Below, one piece after another: positions 14,767 to 25,243 of a stretch of 27,454 bases of DNA. Source of the DNA: a virus; the IMG/VR virus record IMGVR_UViG_3300035681_000105, positions 1 through 27,454 of that record; one strand, 5' to 3'. The notes beneath the pieces are model-generated. The model saw only the letters and a list, made by a program, of their open reading frames with translations. It had not been told where the DNA came from and ran no database searches. Position 1 is the first letter of the stretch; every line of letters starts with the position of its first letter. The position numbers and the translations under genes were made by a program.

Positions 14767-17391
14767 TCAGAGGGTGTCGTTGCCGCGGCTGAAGGATTCA
14801 GGATGGCGAACGGCGATGTCCACGTCCTGCATGGCGACCACGCGCACAGTGCCGGAAGTGCTGTGGGTGTAGGGGTCAACCATCAGATCCAGGCCGGAGA
14901 AGTAGCCGATGATCAGGTCAGCGAAGTTGCCGAACCACAGATCGCCGGACTCAACCTGATTGGAGAGCACGCCGCGGTAGCCATTGACCTCGTTGCCTTC
15001 CATCACGAACAGGCCGGAGCCGGTGTCTTTGGCCTTGGTCTTCAGACCGCCGCGCATGGCAGCGTTCATCAGGTAGACAGGGCTGCCGAGCAGTGCGTTA
15101 GCAGTTGCCACGTCGCTCTCGAGCGCCACAACCTCAGCGAAGGTGGGGATTGCAGCGGCGAAGTTCTCGGTGCCGATGCCGGTGGTCAGCTTCAGGCCGA
15201 GGGGTTCGCTGTTGCTGCCGGTGCCATAAAGGCCAGCAGCGTCGATCTTGAGCGCAAGCACGCGAGCCAGGTCGTTGCGGACCATGTTCTCCACGTCGAT
15301 GCTGGACTGCAGCATCAGGCGGCGGCTGTAGTCGGTGTAGGCAGCAACCGTTTTGGGGGTCAGGCTGACCTGATCCACGGTCTGCTGGCTCTCGGTGGGC
15401 GAGCCGCTCTCAGCCACCCAATAAGCGGTGGCGGCACCGGACTGGCGGGGAATGGCAACGTTGCCGGTCAGGCCGGTCAGCACGGTGGCGCCAGCTTGAT
15501 CGAGAGCGGAAGCATTGCGCAGCAGGTCGATGAAGCTGCCGGCGTCCAGTTCGGTGGCGACGAGGTTACCGCCAGCGGTGGCAGCGCCCACGTTCAGGTC
15601 ACGGCGCAGCACATCCTGGGGGATGGTGATGCCGCGTGACTGACGGCCGAGTTTGGCCGCAGCAGCCTCGGAGGCTTCGATCTCGAAGGCAGCAGCCTCG
15701 CGGGCCGAGCGATCGGTTGGGTTAGCAAGGAAGTTGATGGCGCGCAGGAAAGAGAAGCTGCGGCTCTCCTTCTCGCTAAGGCCAAGGTCGGCGGCCTGCA
15801 TGGTCACGGTCTCCTGGTGAATGTTGAGCTTGTCGAGCACAGCAGCGCGAGCCTCGTCGATTGAACGACCAGACTCAACCAGCTGCCGGCCCAGGTCTGC
15901 CATGCCGTGCTTGTCGCACAGGGCAGTGATGTCCGAGATGCGGGCGCGTTCGGCCTGAGCGGCCTCGGCCTGCACCACGGCCAGATCGGGGGTGGCGGTT
16001 TCCATTAGAGGAATAGGATCGGGGGATGGTGCTGCCGAAGCAGCAGGGGTGTCAGCCTCAAAAGATCGGCCGATCCCGACGCCGGGGTCAGCCGGCACCG
16101 AGACAACGCTGATCTCATAAGGAGACCAGGCAGTTGCAACATAGTCACCACTGCCACGCTCCTCCATTTTGTCAATGGAGTAGCCGAAGGAAACATTCCG
16201 TAGAACGCCATCCTTCACATCACTCAGGATCTCCTGAGCAAAGGCGTTGCGGCTAAACCGCACGCGTGCATAGCCGCGGCGGCGTTTGCCGTCGATGTAT
16301 GCCCGCTCAACCACGCCGATCACCCTGTCAGGGTTGTGGTTGAACAGCAGCGGTGCGCCATCGTTCAGGCGGCTTAGGTTGGCTGCTTCTTCATCGTGGC
16401 TCAGGATCTCATTGCCGAAGTAACGGGCAACCGGAAACTCAGAGCTGAACGGGAACTCATAGGTGCGGTCCTGCACCTCATCGAAGGTGGTCAGCTCAGC
16501 GCGCTGATACTTGCCGGTGAGGCTGCGCAGTGCCGAGATCTTGGTCAGGGTTGAGAACTTGTGGCCGACCATCGTCTCAGTTGCCTCCCATCCTTCATCG
16601 CCTTCGCGGTAGATGCGGATCAGCGCGGCTGGGTCTTCAGGTGTGGCCTCGATGCTGAACTCAGTGTCGGGCACGCCCAGGGTGCCTTCGCGCATGACGT
16701 GCTCTATGCGGCCCTGAGCGGTGCCGCCGCTGCTGTTCCACCGCACGAAGTCGCCCTCGGACAGATCGCCGGGTTCGGCCCGCTCGCCATCGCCGGTGGC
16801 CTCCTCAAACATGATCGCACTGAAGTCGTGCTCAGCCAGCCAGTCGCGCGCCTCGGCCGGGCTGTACTGCGAACTATTGAACCGGATCGCTTGAATCTCG
16901 CTTTCGCCTTCCTTAATGCCGTAGATGAAGTCGATGCCAGGGCCGCCCGCATCATTCTCACGACGAAGCGAATCATACTGATCCGGATCGGTCAGCCTCG
17001 CGGCGTGTTCATTTGGATAGGGACGCGCTAATTCCACGGCGCTTCGATCTTCTAGTGCTTTGATTCTATCGGCCTTGGCCGTGGCCCAACTTTGACCCGC
17101 ATCGCCGCCCCATGCGGCCCATGCGACACGTCCCGGTGATGGGTAGCCATCTTCATCAGGGCTGAATCCTTCGCCTTGCTTGTCCACCTCATGCCGCGCA
17201 AACCACGCCGCCATGGTGATCACGGTGTCGGGGCTCAGCTCATCACCGCTCAAGATCTGCCGCGCTCTGGCCGCGGCCACCTCAGTGCCGCCTGCCCGAC
17301 CCTCGTCCTTCCAGTCGCGATAGCGTTGCGCCTCGGTCTTCATGCCATCCGTTGGCATCAGATCAATGTCCTGCCCGTTGACGGTTGCCAT
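14767..17391 (-). CDS. Prohead protease - HK97-fold major capsid protein fusion with N-terminal accessory and Tudor-like domains
   Basis: One uninterrupted 874-codon ORF. Residues 20-110 form a phage-specific module (DTVITMAAWFARHEVD, PGRVAWAAWGGDAG). Residues 150-200 include IQAIRFNSSQYSPAEARDWL. Residues 205-290 (EGDFVRWNSSGGTAQGRIEHV...HKFSTLTKI) match the DUF2945/HVA1 Tudor-like pattern. Residues 300-445 are a HK97-type U35 prohead protease with His about 352 (FNHNPDRVIG), Ser about 401 (LRNVSFGYS) and the YEISVVSVPADP strand. A proline/alanine linker and a helical delta-like region follow. Residues 590-874 are the HK97-fold major capsid protein (AYWVAESG, VAAYTDYSRRL, NDLARVLALKIDAAGLYG). 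The protease presumably cleaves itself off during maturation. ATG 17391 has GAGG upstream and overlaps the portal TGA; an earlier in-frame TTG is less likely. Confidence 0.92.
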   Translation of the reverse strand: MATVNGQDIDLMPTDGMKTEAQRYRDWKDEGRAGGTEVAAARARQILSGDELSPDTVITMAAWFARHEVDKQGEGFSPDEDGYPSPGRVAWAAWGGDAGQSWATAKADRIKALEDRSAVELARPYPNEHAARLTDPDQYDSLRRENDAGGPGIDFIYGIKEGESEIQAIRFNSSQYSPAEARDWLAEHDFSAIMFEEATGDGERAEPGDLSEGDFVRWNSSGGTAQGRIEHVMREGTLGVPDTEFSIEATPEDPAALIRIYREGDEGWEATETMVGHKFSTLTKISALRSLTGKYQRAELTTFDEVQDRTYEFPFSSEFPVARYFGNEILSHDEEAANLSRLNDGAPLLFNHNPDRVIGVVERAYIDGKRRRGYARVRFSRNAFAQEILSDVKDGVLRNVSFGYSIDKMEERGSGDYVATAWSPYEISVVSVPADPGVGIGRSFEADTPAASAAPSPDPIPLMETATPDLAVVQAEAAQAERARISDITALCDKHGMADLGRQLVESGRSIDEARAAVLDKLNIHQETVTMQAADLGLSEKESRSFSFLRAINFLANPTDRSAREAAAFEIEASEAAAAKLGRQSRGITIPQDVLRRDLNVGAATAGGNLVATELDAGSFIDLLRNASALDQAGATVLTGLTGNVAIPRQSGAATAYWVAESGSPTESQQTVDQVSLTPKTVAAYTDYSRRLMLQSSIDVENMVRNDLARVLALKIDAAGLYGTGSNSEPLGLKLTTGIGTENFAAAIPTFAEVVALESDVATANALLGSPVYLMNAAMRGGLKTKAKDTGSGLFVMEGNEVNGYRGVLSNQVESGDLWFGNFADLIIGYFSGLDLMVDPYTHSTSGTVRVVAMQDVDIAVRHPESFSRGNDTL

Positions 17392-18971
17392 CAATCCTCA
17401 GGCGCCTCGGTCGGGTCCTCGAGCACAGACTCCTCCTCGTATTCATCCTCCTCCATCGGTGGCTCGGTTTCCTCAAATGCCGGCATCGCGCCCATGCCCA
17501 GCGGGGATTGCACCGCGCCGCTATCGCTCACCTCACTCGGGTCGGTGTCCGTAACGATGTCCATCTCATCGAGCATCGCCAGCTCAGCCTGACGTGCAAC
17601 CAGGACATCCTCAAGATCGCCGCCCTGCTCCGCGATCACCTGGCCCAGCGTCTTGAATCCACACCTGACAGCTGCCTTATAGGCGTTCACCTCGCGTTGA
17701 GGGTCAACCCACTCCCAGCTGCGCGGCACCCACCGGCTGGCGCGATAGCGCTCTGGATTGGTCTCATACCCAGGCAGGCTCAGCGCGCCGCTGAGCACCG
17801 CCATCTCAAGCCACTGCTCAAACACCTGTTGATGGAAGTTCTCCACCATGCACCGCTGCAGCACCCGGTAGGTGTCGCGCTCCTCCAGCAGGCTCAGCCG
17901 GCTGCTGCTGTAGTTGCTCTCTGAAAAGTTCTTGCTGATGCTCTCGAACGAAACACCTACGCCAGCAGCCACGGCCCGCAGCATCGACCGCGTGAACGGC
18001 TCAAGCTGCCCGTCAGGGCTGTTCAGGTCCGGCACCGTGACGCTCTCGCCCGGTTGCAGATACTTGAACACACCCGGCTGAAACTCACTGACCCGCTCGC
18101 CCTCATACACCTCATCACCCACCAGCTCGCCCTCGGGGCTGGTGATGAATCCCATCAGCGCGCTACTCGCACGAGCACGCACCACCTCGGCCTCCTCATA
18201 GCCCTGCAGCATGTGAAGCCGCATCAGCGCAGACGCGAACCACGTCACGCCCCGCGTCTGCCCTGGCCGCTCAGGCAGGAACAGGTGGATCACCTCATTA
18301 GCTGGCACACGGATGCGGCGGCCGTTGGTGCGCGCGTTGCCCGCATAAGTGTCGCCTGGATGATTCGCGTAGAAGTGATACGCCTGCGGCCGCAGGTACT
18401 GATCCACCTCGATGCCCATCCGCACCGTGTTGCCCTCGGCCGCCTGCGGCACGTCATCGTCGATCAGGTAGTCAGCCTCGAGCACCTGCAGCGCAAACGG
18501 CACACGGCTATCACCGAAAGGCCGCTTGATCATCCGCACGAACACCTCGCCCGACTCGGCCATGCTGCGCACCAGCAGGCGCTCGATGTCGTGGAAGCCA
18601 AGAATCCCGCTCACATCGCAGCGGTTCTTATGCATCCACTTCTCCCACTGCTCATGAATGCGGCCGTTGATCGCCTCATCAAGCTTGCCGCCGCGCAGCA
18701 TCCGTACCTGCCCCTGATGCCGGATGCCGTGCCCGATCACGTTGTTCTGGATCGCGCGCAGCGCCTGCTTTGCGTAGTCATTGTCACGGCACAATTGCCG
18801 CGCACGGTTGCGCAAAGCCTTGAAACTCGACTTGATCTCGGCGTCAGCGCTGGTGCCGCTTGTCACCCAGTCCGCTGTCAGTCGGCTAACCCGCGCGCCC
18901 TGATACGCCCGCGCCCGCGGCCGCACCGGCTCAAAACCCATCGCCCGAAACAGTCGCGTCCTCAGTCCCAT
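17391..18971 (-). CDS. Portal protein (lambda gpB family)
   Basis: A 526-residue portal protein, forming the dodecameric ring at one capsid vertex. The N-terminal segment with SFKALRNRARQLCRDNDYAKQALRAIQNNVIGHGI is the hallmark of the lambda-type portal family. Further support comes from EQWEKWM, a FVRMIKRP strand, HLFLPERPGQTRGVTW near residues 230-246 and the SFESISKNFSESNYSSSR segment near 345-362, which corresponds to the conserved wing/stem region. The tail end is acidic (EETEPPMEEDEYEEES). Length is close to lambda gpB (533). The ATG lies one base after the joining-protein stop, and its TGA shares a base with the ATG of the protease-capsid ORF (TGATG). Confidence 0.93.
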   Translation of the reverse strand: MGLRTRLFRAMGFEPVRPRARAYQGARVSRLTADWVTSGTSADAEIKSSFKALRNRARQLCRDNDYAKQALRAIQNNVIGHGIRHQGQVRMLRGGKLDEAINGRIHEQWEKWMHKNRCDVSGILGFHDIERLLVRSMAESGEVFVRMIKRPFGDSRVPFALQVLEADYLIDDDVPQAAEGNTVRMGIEVDQYLRPQAYHFYANHPGDTYAGNARTNGRRIRVPANEVIHLFLPERPGQTRGVTWFASALMRLHMLQGYEEAEVVRARASSALMGFITSPEGELVGDEVYEGERVSEFQPGVFKYLQPGESVTVPDLNSPDGQLEPFTRSMLRAVAAGVGVSFESISKNFSESNYSSSRLSLLEERDTYRVLQRCMVENFHQQVFEQWLEMAVLSGALSLPGYETNPERYRASRWVPRSWEWVDPQREVNAYKAAVRCGFKTLGQVIAEQGGDLEDVLVARQAELAMLDEMDIVTDTDPSEVSDSGAVQSPLGMGAMPAFEETEPPMEEDEYEEESVLEDPTEAPED

Positions 18972-21919: not shown

Positions 21920-22012
21920 TGAGAAGAGTTAAAAACCACTAGGCTTAACTTAACTGATCCTAAACCCCGCTTAACGGTCTAGCCCTGAGTCCAATTTGAC
22001 GCGACGTGAGAT

Positions 22013-22029
22013 CCCTTGCGGCGCAAGGG
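22013..22029. repeat. Perfect hairpin CCCTTGC-GGC-GCAAGGG
   Basis: A 7-bp perfect stem with a 3-base loop lies in the spacer upstream of the terminase small subunit. It lacks a T-run on either side, so it is a weak terminator candidate. It may be part of a packaging or recombination site. Confidence 0.55.
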
Positions 22030-22112
22030 TTTACGGGCTTTTGGGGCTGACGCTAGATAAAAGACGCGCGTTTGGACGACCCATGCACATTGGCCCCGGA
22101 GGGACCCGCGAT

Positions 22113-22138
22113 GCGGCCGGCAAGCGGCCTGAAGGCCG
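22113..22138. repeat. GCGGCC direct repeat with overlapping CGGCCT/AGGCCG hairpin
   Basis: GCGGCC occurs at 22113-22118 and 22124-22129; the second copy runs into a short inverted repeat CGGCCT-GA-AGGCCG (22125-22138). The cluster sits mid-spacer upstream of the terminase genes. Short GC-rich repeats are common by chance in such DNA, so significance is modest. Confidence 0.4.
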
Positions 22139-22199
22139 ACGATTGCGTGTTCATGATCCAAACCACGCGAAGCATGGCCCATGCCCATTGCAGCGCCTT

Positions 22200-22880
22200 C
22201 TAGCGCGCTGTCGCGATCGCACGCTCTAACGCTGTCTTGAAGTAGCTCGCATAGCGCCTCTGATAGACCTTGCCAACCACATCAAGCATCGGGAAGCGCG
22301 GCTGATACTGCGCTGCCTGATCAATGGCGATGAAGTATGGGAACAGCTGACCCTTGCTGCGTCTGTAGATACCAGCAGGGCGGTCGCCCCCCTTAGGGGT
22401 ACCCACGAAGAAGCCACCCTGAGGGTTGCTACCCAGGCCCTGCTTAATGCGCTTGAGGGTGGCGAGGCTCACGTTGCCGGAGGCATTGAGCTTGACCAGG
22501 GAGGTGGGTATGAACTGACTGTCACGGGGGATCTGCGCTGACGCTGTGATCTGCGCAAGGAACAACCGCTCAAAGCCTTTCTGGCTACGTGCGCCACCTG
22601 TGATCTGTGTGCGCAGGTAGCGGGCGCGCTTGGCCTCTGCGCCAACGACCACCTCTAGATCACGCTTGGTGCTCTTCTCGACGCCGAAGCCTTTCTGGGT
22701 GAATGACGTGGGCCGGTCGAAGTATTGGCGTGTGGCACCAGAGAGGGACGTGCGCGCATCGAAGGCGGTGTCGTTGAGCGCCTTGCTGGTGGCGAATGGC
22801 AGCTGCTTAAGCAGCGCAGCCGACCATGCCTCGGCCTTGCCAAGGTCGCTGGTGAGGTCGATGGAGATGCCGCCTGCCAT
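22200..22880 (-). CDS. Putative tail-completion / minor tail protein (gpZ-like)
   Basis: A 226-residue protein. The start (MAGGISIDLTSDLGKAEAW) is followed by a helix LPFATSKALNDTAFDARTSL near residues 26-45, then FDRPTSFTQKGF near 54-65, a YLRTQITGGARSQKGFERLFL segment near 88-108, and a C-terminal FKTALERAIATAR helix. This pattern (ALNxTAxxAR, then PTxFTxKxF, then GGxRxxKxxE) resembles phage minor tail protein Z-type tail-completion proteins, which cap the tail before head joining. The assignment is from pattern only. Its place is unusual: upstream of the terminase rather than between the head-tail connector and tail terminator as in lambda. ATG 22880 is preceded by an in-frame TGA two codons upstream and no good ribosome site directly before it. 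Confidence 0.5.
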   Translation of the reverse strand: MAGGISIDLTSDLGKAEAWSAALLKQLPFATSKALNDTAFDARTSLSGATRQYFDRPTSFTQKGFGVEKSTKRDLEVVVGAEAKRARYLRTQITGGARSQKGFERLFLAQITASAQIPRDSQFIPTSLVKLNASGNVSLATLKRIKQGLGSNPQGGFFVGTPKGGDRPAGIYRRSKGQLFPYFIAIDQAAQYQPRFPMLDVVGKVYQRRYASYFKTALERAIATAR

Positions 22881-22937
22881 GGGTCAAGGGTAGGCGGAGC
22901 CGGTGAGACTGACTTTGTTCCCAGTTCCCACCGTTCC

Positions 22938-22947
22938 CACCTCCTTA
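22938..22947 (-). promoter_or_regulatory. Near-perfect Shine-Dalgarno sequence TAAGGAGGTG
   Basis: On the minus strand TAAGGAGGTG matches the 16S rRNA tail very closely. It stands seven bases before a GTG at 22931-22929 that opens a 15-codon reading frame ending in TGA at 22886-22884. That TGA lies in the same frame as the next gene, whose ATG follows one codon later at 22880. The site may drive a leader peptide coupled to the downstream gene, or serve a longer protein now interrupted by a stop. Confidence 0.6.
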
Positions 22948-23061
22948 GAAGAGTTTCCCCACGCCCCCCTGTACCCCCCTTCTCCCCTATTCCATATAGG
23001 TCTTTTATATAGGTAGGAACAGTAGGAACATAGGAACAAGGTAGTAGCAGACAGGGTTTCG

Positions 23062-23095
23062 GTGTTCCCACCTACTCCCCAGCAGGTAGGAACAC
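23062..23095. repeat. 12-bp inverted repeat (hairpin) built from two GTTCCYACC sites
   Basis: The arms GTGTTCCCACCT (23062-23073) and AGGTAGGAACAC (23084-23095) pair with a single mismatch that becomes a U-G wobble in the minus-strand transcript, around a 10-base loop. It lies about 40 bases downstream of the primase-helicase stop. No T-run follows, so it is not a typical intrinsic terminator, but it could stabilise the mRNA end or be a protein-binding palindrome. Confidence 0.6.
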
Positions 23096-23134
23096 AAGCC
23101 TGTCTCACTTTGAGACTCACAAGACTCGACTGTC

Positions 23135-25243
23135 TCAAAAGTAGACCCATTTGAGAATGCCATCGACTCGGGTCTTCTTTCGTTGGTACCCGAGGTCGCG
23201 CAGGATGCTGGCCACCTGCATCTGATCGGACCGGGTTTGACGCTCCACCGGCTTGGCCACGGCCTCGGCCAAGAGCACGTCGGTCGTGATGTCCTTGGAC
23301 TTGTTATGGGGTGCCAGAAGCCACGCTTCGATCGGTGCGCGCCATGGCGACTCGACCAGGTAGTCCTCGTTCTGTTGAGCCACCATCGCCTCTTGTTCGG
23401 CTGTGAGCACGCTGGGCTCGCCGTTGCGGTAGGCGGCCACCGCTGCCGACCAAATGGCGTCGCGCTCCTTGAGCAGCGATGACACGTCGATCGGTTTGGC
23501 AAGCGTGCAGGTGACGGGGATGACCCAGAACCGGCGGTTGCCTGTCTCGTCAACAAGCAGGCCGGTGTCGCGGTTGGTTGAACCAACGATGATGCAGCGG
23601 CGCGGGAATGCTTCGGTGGCTTTGCCGTAGGGGATGCGGAAGAGGTCGGTTGATTGGCTCAGGAATGCCTTGACCTGACCGGCGTGTTTCTTGCTGGTGA
23701 TGTGATCCAGCTCGGCCCATTCCATGATCCAGCTGCGATGCAGGACCATCAGGTCGTCTTTTGATCCGATGTCTTTGAGCGCATCGGAAAAGAACTCGCC
23801 ACCGATCGCGGCCCAGAAGGATGACTTGCGTGCGCCCTGTTCACCCATAAGGACCGTTGCGTTGTCGTGCTTGGCACCGGGTTCGTAGATGCGGCGCACC
23901 GCACCGATGAGGGTGCAGCGGATCATGTGGTCATAGAGGGTGGGTTCTGGTGTGGTTGAGTCTTCAGGCCGTAGGTAGGTGGATGCGAGCCGGTCGATGT
24001 AGGTGGGCTGTTCGTGTGCTGCGACGTGGTTCAGGTAGTTCTTAATCGGGTCGTAGGGGTTCGCCTTGGCGATCTTGACTAGGCAGTCGAGTGCGGTCTC
24101 TTTTGAGATCTTGCCGCCGCGTTCTGCGATCTCGAGGTAGAAATGCTCGGCGCCTTCTAGGACTTTGCCGTTGCGTTCGATCTGCTGGGTGAAGATGTTG
24201 TACCGGAGGTTGCCGGCATCCCGTAGCTGCTGCAGCAGCTCGTTTGCCTCCATGCGCTTGAGCGGCTGCGGGTCGATGGGCGTGATGGCTGTGGGCGGGT
24301 GATCGGCAATGACCTGCGGAATGGTGCGTGGCGGCCGCCAGCCGTGTTCACGCGCGAAATACCAGAACGTGCCGGCGGTGACTGATGCGCAGTTGCTGCG
24401 TGCCACCTGCTGCGCTTCGGCAAAGGCAGGGCTGTGGCGCTGGATCATGGCGACAGCCTGATCGGCGGTGCTGCCGGCTTCCTCGCAGGCGGCGATGAGG
24501 CCCCATAGCAGATTGCGGAAGAATGGGTATTGACCGGATTTGGGGATCGCGGCCGGAATGCAGTCGAGGGCCTGCTGGATGTCTGAGAGAGTGCGGGGTG
24601 TGTGGTCGGTGTATTGCTTGGCGCTGATCAGGCGGGTGTGTGTCTGCTCGTCGGGCAGGCAGGCGTTCAGTTGATCTGGGGTGTAGGTGAGATCTGATTG
24701 ATGGATGATGGCCACCTGCTGGCCTGGGTGGCCGTCTGGGCCGATGTGATAGGTGCCGGGCAGGCGCATGACCCGCGAGGGGTTTTTGAGCGTGCGATCT
24801 GCGTCGGCGTGCTCAAGGAGCCGCTTCTGCAGTGAGCGCCACTGATCGGGTGCAATCGGATCAGCGAGCACCCAGTACGTGTGAATCGACTTGCCGCCGG
24901 TGTCAACCTGCAGCGATGGCTCTGGGAGCTGCAGCTCTTGCCATGCGGTGACCTGCCAGTCTTTTGGCCGGTTGTCCCATTCGCAAAAGATGGCGCGACA
25001 GGCGGTGATTTCTGAGTCGGTGTCACCGCCGTCGTTGATGACGACGTAGACGCCGCGGCCCTCGGCCTGCCATTCGTCGATGATGGCGGCTGATGGCGGT
25101 GCTTTGCGGCCTGAGTCACCGGCCTTGAACTGGTGGCCAGAGGGATAGAACGCGCGGAGTCTGGTGGCTTCTTTGGTCTTGCCGAGGATCTTCAGGAACT
25201 GACGAGCGGCGCTGAAGTCAACGGGTTTTGATAGTCTTGCCAT
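23135..25243 (-). CDS. VapE-type primase-helicase (AEP-like primase domain plus SF3-like ATPase)
   Basis: This 702-residue protein is the likely phage replication initiator. Residues about 60-190 resemble a RepB-like archaeo-eukaryotic primase domain: an acidic FCEWDN strand near 86-91, a histidine strand SIHTYWVL near 119-126, and NPSRVMRLPGTYH near 154-166. Residues about 430-600 are the VapE family ATPase (virulence-associated E): a P-loop near 467-474, an acidic strand IMEWAELD near 506-513, a GSTN sensor strand near 554-557 and TGNRRFW near 567-573. The last 70 residues look like a winged helix. The P-loop reads GEQGARKS, with Arg at the usual last glycine; VapE-family proteins appear to tolerate this. 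The repeat-rich spacer immediately downstream is a plausible origin. Confidence 0.88.
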   Translation of the reverse strand: MARLSKPVDFSAARQFLKILGKTKEATRLRAFYPSGHQFKAGDSGRKAPPSAAIIDEWQAEGRGVYVVINDGGDTDSEITACRAIFCEWDNRPKDWQVTAWQELQLPEPSLQVDTGGKSIHTYWVLADPIAPDQWRSLQKRLLEHADADRTLKNPSRVMRLPGTYHIGPDGHPGQQVAIIHQSDLTYTPDQLNACLPDEQTHTRLISAKQYTDHTPRTLSDIQQALDCIPAAIPKSGQYPFFRNLLWGLIAACEEAGSTADQAVAMIQRHSPAFAEAQQVARSNCASVTAGTFWYFAREHGWRPPRTIPQVIADHPPTAITPIDPQPLKRMEANELLQQLRDAGNLRYNIFTQQIERNGKVLEGAEHFYLEIAERGGKISKETALDCLVKIAKANPYDPIKNYLNHVAAHEQPTYIDRLASTYLRPEDSTTPEPTLYDHMIRCTLIGAVRRIYEPGAKHDNATVLMGEQGARKSSFWAAIGGEFFSDALKDIGSKDDLMVLHRSWIMEWAELDHITSKKHAGQVKAFLSQSTDLFRIPYGKATEAFPRRCIIVGSTNRDTGLLVDETGNRRFWVIPVTCTLAKPIDVSSLLKERDAIWSAAVAAYRNGEPSVLTAEQEAMVAQQNEDYLVESPWRAPIEAWLLAPHNKSKDITTDVLLAEAVAKPVERQTRSDQMQVASILRDLGYQRKKTRVDGILKWVYF

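Follow-up and report, generated by a model that had tools for sequence, protein, structure and literature searches.

The vapE locus and its 3' spacer

The window, i.e. the whole stretch of DNA that was analysed, is a 27,454-bp virus record and possibly a fragment. It carries terS, terL, portal, capsid and tail genes; an 875-aa ORF at 14767-17394 combines a prohead protease (S78), a short TUDOR-like domain and the major capsid protein. A 254-bp spacer separates the vapE gene (stop at 23135) from a minor-tail-protein gene at 22200-22880. The element described here (22903-23108) follows directly 3' of the vapE stop, with the replication module on one side and the structural module on the other, and terS starts approximately 1 kb from it. 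All features are listed in Table 1.

The 702-aa vapE product consists of an AEP domain, a linker, a VapE-type AAA+ helicase and a C-terminal winged helix. In phmmer searches it matched 7pds (SaPI-type Rep, E = 1.9e-26) and also the S-2L PrimPol AEP 6zp9. Foldseek with the whole model gave 7pds (SaPI-type PriRep1 with dsDNA; 3e-15) and cyanophage S-2L PrimPol AEP 6zp9 as best matches. The VapE helicase core is thus homologous to SaPI-type Rep, and the Pfam, phmmer and Foldseek matches identified the gene as PrimPol-VapE, in agreement with a previous reading of the sequence alone (hereafter the sequence-only reading), which had placed a primase-helicase beside the site cluster. The C-terminal 72 residues were modelled by AlphaFold2 as helix-helix-helix-strand-strand (isolated-domain pLDDT 91.8) and are predicted to form a winged helix. 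Foldseek with an isolated 78-residue domain returned weak matches (E at least 0.09), including winged-helix regulators of the PadR and MarR types.

The N-terminal primase module was found in two unrelated-looking types on nearly the same helicase. Between the window and L036 or other type II loci, identity shifts from ~15-20% to ~80% across a junction near VapE residue ~296.

Table 1. Features of the vapE 3' spacer and the adjoining gene (window coordinates).
Feature	Position	Strand	Basis or remarks
Outer boundary word GTGAGACTGACTT	22903..22915	+	inverted partner 23096-23108
Candidate replication origin: AT-rich core surrounded by eight GTTCCYA iterons (two opposed triplets, one facing pair)	22917..23093
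GTTCCYA sites	22917, 22924, 22933; 23014, 23023, 23031; 23064; 23087	+; -; +; -	motif search
Iteron triplet, distal to vapE	22917..22939	+	sites 22917, 22924, 22933
Conserved box GGGGAAACTCTTCTAAGGAGG adjoining the far triplet	22940..22960	-	comparison with relatives
C-run on + (G-run on -), asymmetric core	22957..22989		kept in relatives once oriented
AT-rich core with two ATATAGGT copies (22994, 23007), presumed unwinding segment	22985..23013
Iteron triplet, vapE side	23014..23037	-	sites 23014, 23023, 23031
Facing iteron pair, just 3' of the vapE stop	23062..23095	23064 + / 23087 -	imperfect inverted repeat
Outer boundary word, inverted partner of 22903-22915	23096..23108	-
PrimPol-VapE primase-helicase, 702 aa, predicted origin-binding initiator	23135..25243	-	PF05272, E 3.5e-65
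C-terminal winged-helix domain, residues 631-702, predicted iteron reader	23138..23353	-	AlphaFold2

Architecture of the element

GTTCCYA occurs 11 times in the window against 3.4 expected, and 8 of the 11 sites are inside the vapE 3' spacer. The sequence-only reading had reported eight near-identical sites within 179 bases; all eight were recovered at 22917-23093, and 300 dinucleotide shuffles of the whole window yielded a maximum of 2 per 179 bp. Site coordinates and strands also agreed with its description of two opposed triplets and a facing pair. The pair had been taken for a 12-bp palindrome: a facing inverted repeat does exist and is longer, with 15-nt arms (23062-23076 and 23081-23095) around a 4-nt loop, but it is not perfect (87% complementary). 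A hairpin is predicted from it (z -4.1), with no T-run after it in the window. In the direction of vapE, the facing pair comes first, followed by the forward triplet, the AT-rich core, the G-run, box GGGGAAACTCTTCTAAGGAGG and the reverse triplet, the whole arrangement being bracketed by TGAGAC words.

The two ATATAGGT copies were found 13 bases apart, as described before. The core between the triplets is AT-rich as had been proposed (70% over 30 bp) and ranks among the ~20 most AT-rich 30-mers in the window, in which a few stretches elsewhere are richer. In close relatives, the equivalent core is AT-rich or TATATA. The C-rich run with the conserved box (22940-22989) and the flanking TGAGAC words had been absent from the earlier description; in relatives, the box appears in related forms such as GGAAAGTCT.. 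and GTAGCTCCTAAGG.

TGAGAC words at 22903-22915, 23096-23108 and 23111-23139 account for 4 of the 11 copies in the window, within 234 bp and on both sides of the element, and such words recur next to the element in many relatives. A second conserved box like AAACCCCTTGCGCTGCAAGG was observed between the facing pair and the vapE-side triplet of many relatives (e.g. L059, L070).

Conservation of the element among relatives

Most viral contigs with a VapE at least 60% identical over the full protein keep the arrangement with nearly constant distances, and in the most distant of these relatives the iteron word becomes GTTCCAACC or GTCCAACC. A widened search of related viral contigs yielded 89 distinct vapE 3' spacers. 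A strict two-arm layout test was passed by 50 of them, but by none of 890 shuffles and none of 398 control windows of 300 bp taken elsewhere on these contigs; most of the 39 that failed this automatic test still show the arms by eye. The best site cluster beat all ten shuffles of its own locus in 82/89 spacers. Relatives with the same vapE thus retain the site cluster and its layout; retention of the cluster was a check that the sequence-only reading had named.

Iteron words differ across phages (GTTCCTA, GTTCCAACC, GTCCAACC, TTGCTAACC, TGCCAACC, TGCCCTACC and others). Arm match was 0.37 within and 0.21 between elements (63 loci, permutation p<1e-4), as would be expected if one protein reads all copies of an element, with shared ancestry contributing to the figure. 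In L026 and L027, the facing pair is replaced by direct repeats. S-LBS1-like relatives (L083, L059, L069, L073, L079) carry an inverted iteron pair followed by a T-run within the first 60 bp after the vapE stop, and this pair may double as the vapE terminator.

Phages and elements whose VapE domains are only ~25-35% identical have their own iteron cluster 3' of vapE (0 of 40 shuffles for each). These distant clusters were found in phages of Staphylococcus, Enterococcus, Paenibacillus, Pseudomonas, Marinobacter and S. thermophilus and in a Streptococcus satellite; in Pseudomonas LPPA36, one small gene lies between vapE and the cluster. Shuffle comparison revealed no significant site cluster in the vapE spacers of S-2L and Bacteroides BU2-1.

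A related vapE-origin locus (L243) was present on Cyanobium MAG contig BJHE01000012.1, in a cyanobacterial bin. Its location is consistent with a picocyanobacterial host, although the contig may be phage contamination.

Core orientation and co-inheritance with the C-terminal domain

In 26 of the 89 spacers, the core runs in the opposite direction with respect to vapE, its asymmetric G-run and box included. Orientation was called automatically from the G-run, except for L010, L075 and L176, which were set by eye. Occurrence in both orientations fits an element that acts as DNA better than one that acts as RNA. On the helicase-core tree, at least 10 orientation changes were counted versus one change of N-terminal primase module type, using a quick tree with many weak branches.

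Loci L149 and L112 encode AAA+ domains that are 98% identical, and their vapE DNA is ~85-99% identical (mostly >90%) up to the C-terminal domain. A low-identity block then extends from -229 to +286 around the vapE stop, after which the downstream DNA is back to ~90%. The start of this block coincides with the first residues of the C-terminal domain, and its end lies 24 bp beyond the last L149 iteron; within the block, the two loci differ in iteron type as well as in core orientation. Identity is likewise lost from the C-terminal domain onward in L040/L072 and L103/L150.

Among pairs with AAA+ domains at least 85% identical, orientation differed in 0 of 175 if the C-terminal domain was at least 75% identical and in 59 of 73 if it was below 60%. 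In a separate count, a C-terminal domain at 70% identity or more was shared by 0 opposite-orientation pairs versus 286 same-orientation pairs, while opposite-orientation pairs numbered 860 for the AAA+ and 92 for the N domain. These counts are strong but are not probabilities because pairs are not phylogenetically independent and metagenome assemblies can be chimeric. Pairs sharing the downstream gene still differed in orientation in 23/48 cases, and their iteron distance was 0.19 with a similar C-terminal domain and 0.69 without. Adjacency is therefore insufficient as a cause, since the iteron distance follows the C-terminal domain. The partial Mantel correlation for this domain was modest (r 0.145). 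Across the compared loci, the orientation of the origin and its iteron type go with the winged helix and not with the gene downstream.

The N-terminal PrimPol was tried first as the iteron reader, as close and distant N-modules seemed to track iteron type. It was rejected because GTTCC-like iterons accompany either type of N-module and the partial correlation is in favour of the C-terminal domain.

These data also bear on a reading of the sites as operators for a phage transcription regulator, placed where the replication genes border on the structural genes. The position between the two modules would suit such a regulator, and site clusters in both orientations are known in operators too, but the core is inverted in over a quarter of relatives and the site type tracks the VapE C-terminus instead of the downstream gene. 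Moreover, in Staphylococcus, Enterococcus, Paenibacillus and Streptococcus phages an equivalent cluster lies 3' of vapE with other genes beyond, and the region contains no sigma-70-like promoter, though cyanophage promoters may differ. A role as operators is accordingly considered improbable.

GC skew and scans of the region

The sequence-only reading had proposed GC skew as a check. In the window, as in roughly half of the examined sequences, the cumulative GC-skew minimum comes close to the element, but it is offset by 0.7-1 kb. The first profile was striking; at four-fold sites, however, the skew switches between the minor tail gene and terS (window 21920-22199), and the capsid gene reverses its sign again. 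Relatives mostly agree with this four-fold-site pattern, the skew being patchy and module-linked. GC skew was therefore rejected as proof of an origin and not counted as strong support, being equally compatible with an origin, module boundaries or a packaging site. The switch at 21920-22199 itself is possibly a packaging site or a module border.

That the terminase small subunit binds the element as a packaging (cos/pac) site is less probable still than the operator reading: terS and the skew switch at the tail gene/terS junction are close by, but other phages have the equivalent cluster away from terS, and the block swapped between L149 and L112 takes in the VapE C-terminus while leaving the downstream DNA unchanged.

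Promoter, terminator, tRNA and Rfam scans gave nothing relevant in the region. That the inverted repeats act as RNA, either as a terminator or as a structured 3' end of the vapE message, is the least probable reading, for although the facing pair folds strongly and a T-run follows the equivalent pair in S-LBS1-like relatives, the window has no such run, no Rfam family exceeded its gathering score, direct repeats replace the pair in two relatives, and inversion of the core would destroy any RNA function of the triplets.

Comparison with known replication systems

The alpha protein of satellite P4 is a primase-helicase that is also the origin-binding protein, with two distant sites, ori and crr. 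The same double role is predicted for VapE; in contrast to P4, the sites form one cluster here, on a contig that is possibly incomplete. Foley and colleagues reportedly described, in 1998, a non-coding origin-like element in a Streptococcus thermophilus Sfi phage. Like the present element, it is short, non-coding and phage-borne and has origin features, with a different iteron word. In another phage of that species, CHPC1282, an iteron cluster lies 3' of the gene for the VapE homologue.

In PICI origins, which are located immediately 3' of rep, an AT-rich region is invariably flanked by two sets of iterons, and PICI pri-rep-ori segments, once cloned, behave as replicating plasmids (PMC6092414); the origin is recognised through the Rep C-terminal domain (PMC7581432). 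In the window, the triplets at 22917-22939 and 23014-23037 flank the core at 22985-23013 in this manner. As in the rep-ori segments of SaPIbov1, SaPI1, EfCIV583 and EcCICFT073 (PMC6092414), the candidate origin is immediately 3' of a rep/primase-helicase gene with a homologous helicase (7pds), and iteron words vary between elements. Unlike these satellites, the window is a phage contig with terminase, portal and capsid genes; an S-2L-like PrimPol is fused to the helicase, a G-run and a conserved box are added, and core orientation varies among relatives. The origin would thus be PICI-type but the element is not a PICI, since the window has terS, terL, portal, capsid and tail genes.

The putative origin of SCCmec (Cch2/CCPol-MP) likewise has iterons downstream of a helicase gene; they are bound by the C-terminal domain of the Cch2 helicase, and the primase-polymerase prefers priming at the iteron region (PMC7581432). 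There, however, primase and helicase are separate proteins, three iterons form one set and the element is chromosomal (PMC7581432). The NrS-1 phage PrimPol is also fused to a helicase domain and primes site-specifically at TTTGGTTA, but recognition occurs on a single-stranded template and by the N-terminal part (PMC8718748).

Candidate origin and proposed mechanism

From the layout kept in relatives, the co-inheritance of origin type with the winged helix and the match to satellite-phage origins that have experimental support and lie 3' of homologous Rep genes (PMC6092414, PMC7581432), we regard 22903-23108 as a candidate PICI/SaPI-type replication origin of this freshwater-type phage, bound by the VapE C-terminal winged helix, with a probability of about 0.86. 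The origin proposed by the sequence-only reading is thereby supported.

By analogy with the homologous systems, VapE subunits would bind both opposed iteron triplets via the C-terminal winged helix, and two helicase assemblies would thereby be positioned on either side of the AT-rich core. The core would then melt and the helicases load, and the fused N-terminal PrimPol could prime the exposed strands.

More tentatively, and at somewhat less than even odds, the origin and its winged-helix reader may, in tailed phages whose initiators are of the VapE type, constitute a specificity cassette that can be exchanged. It would have been swapped repeatedly between phages whose replication genes are otherwise nearly identical, in some cases with inversion of the core, switching origin specificity and perhaps allowing escape from competition for the initiator by satellites or co-infecting phages.

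A literature search, incomplete in coverage, returned no paper describing PICI-type origins as widespread outside satellites or a winged-helix/origin exchange. The wide presence of such origins outside satellites appears to be new, as does, judged from the compared loci, the natural exchange of winged helix and origin as one cassette. This origin type was seen across a large group of viral contigs that are related to freshwater cyanophages and have their own structural genes; with the similar clusters 3' of vapE in phages of several other bacteria, this suggests that satellite and phage replicons share one design. The natural swaps supply dozens of domain-origin pairs as a panel and make it directly testable whether one 72-residue domain recognises the origin.
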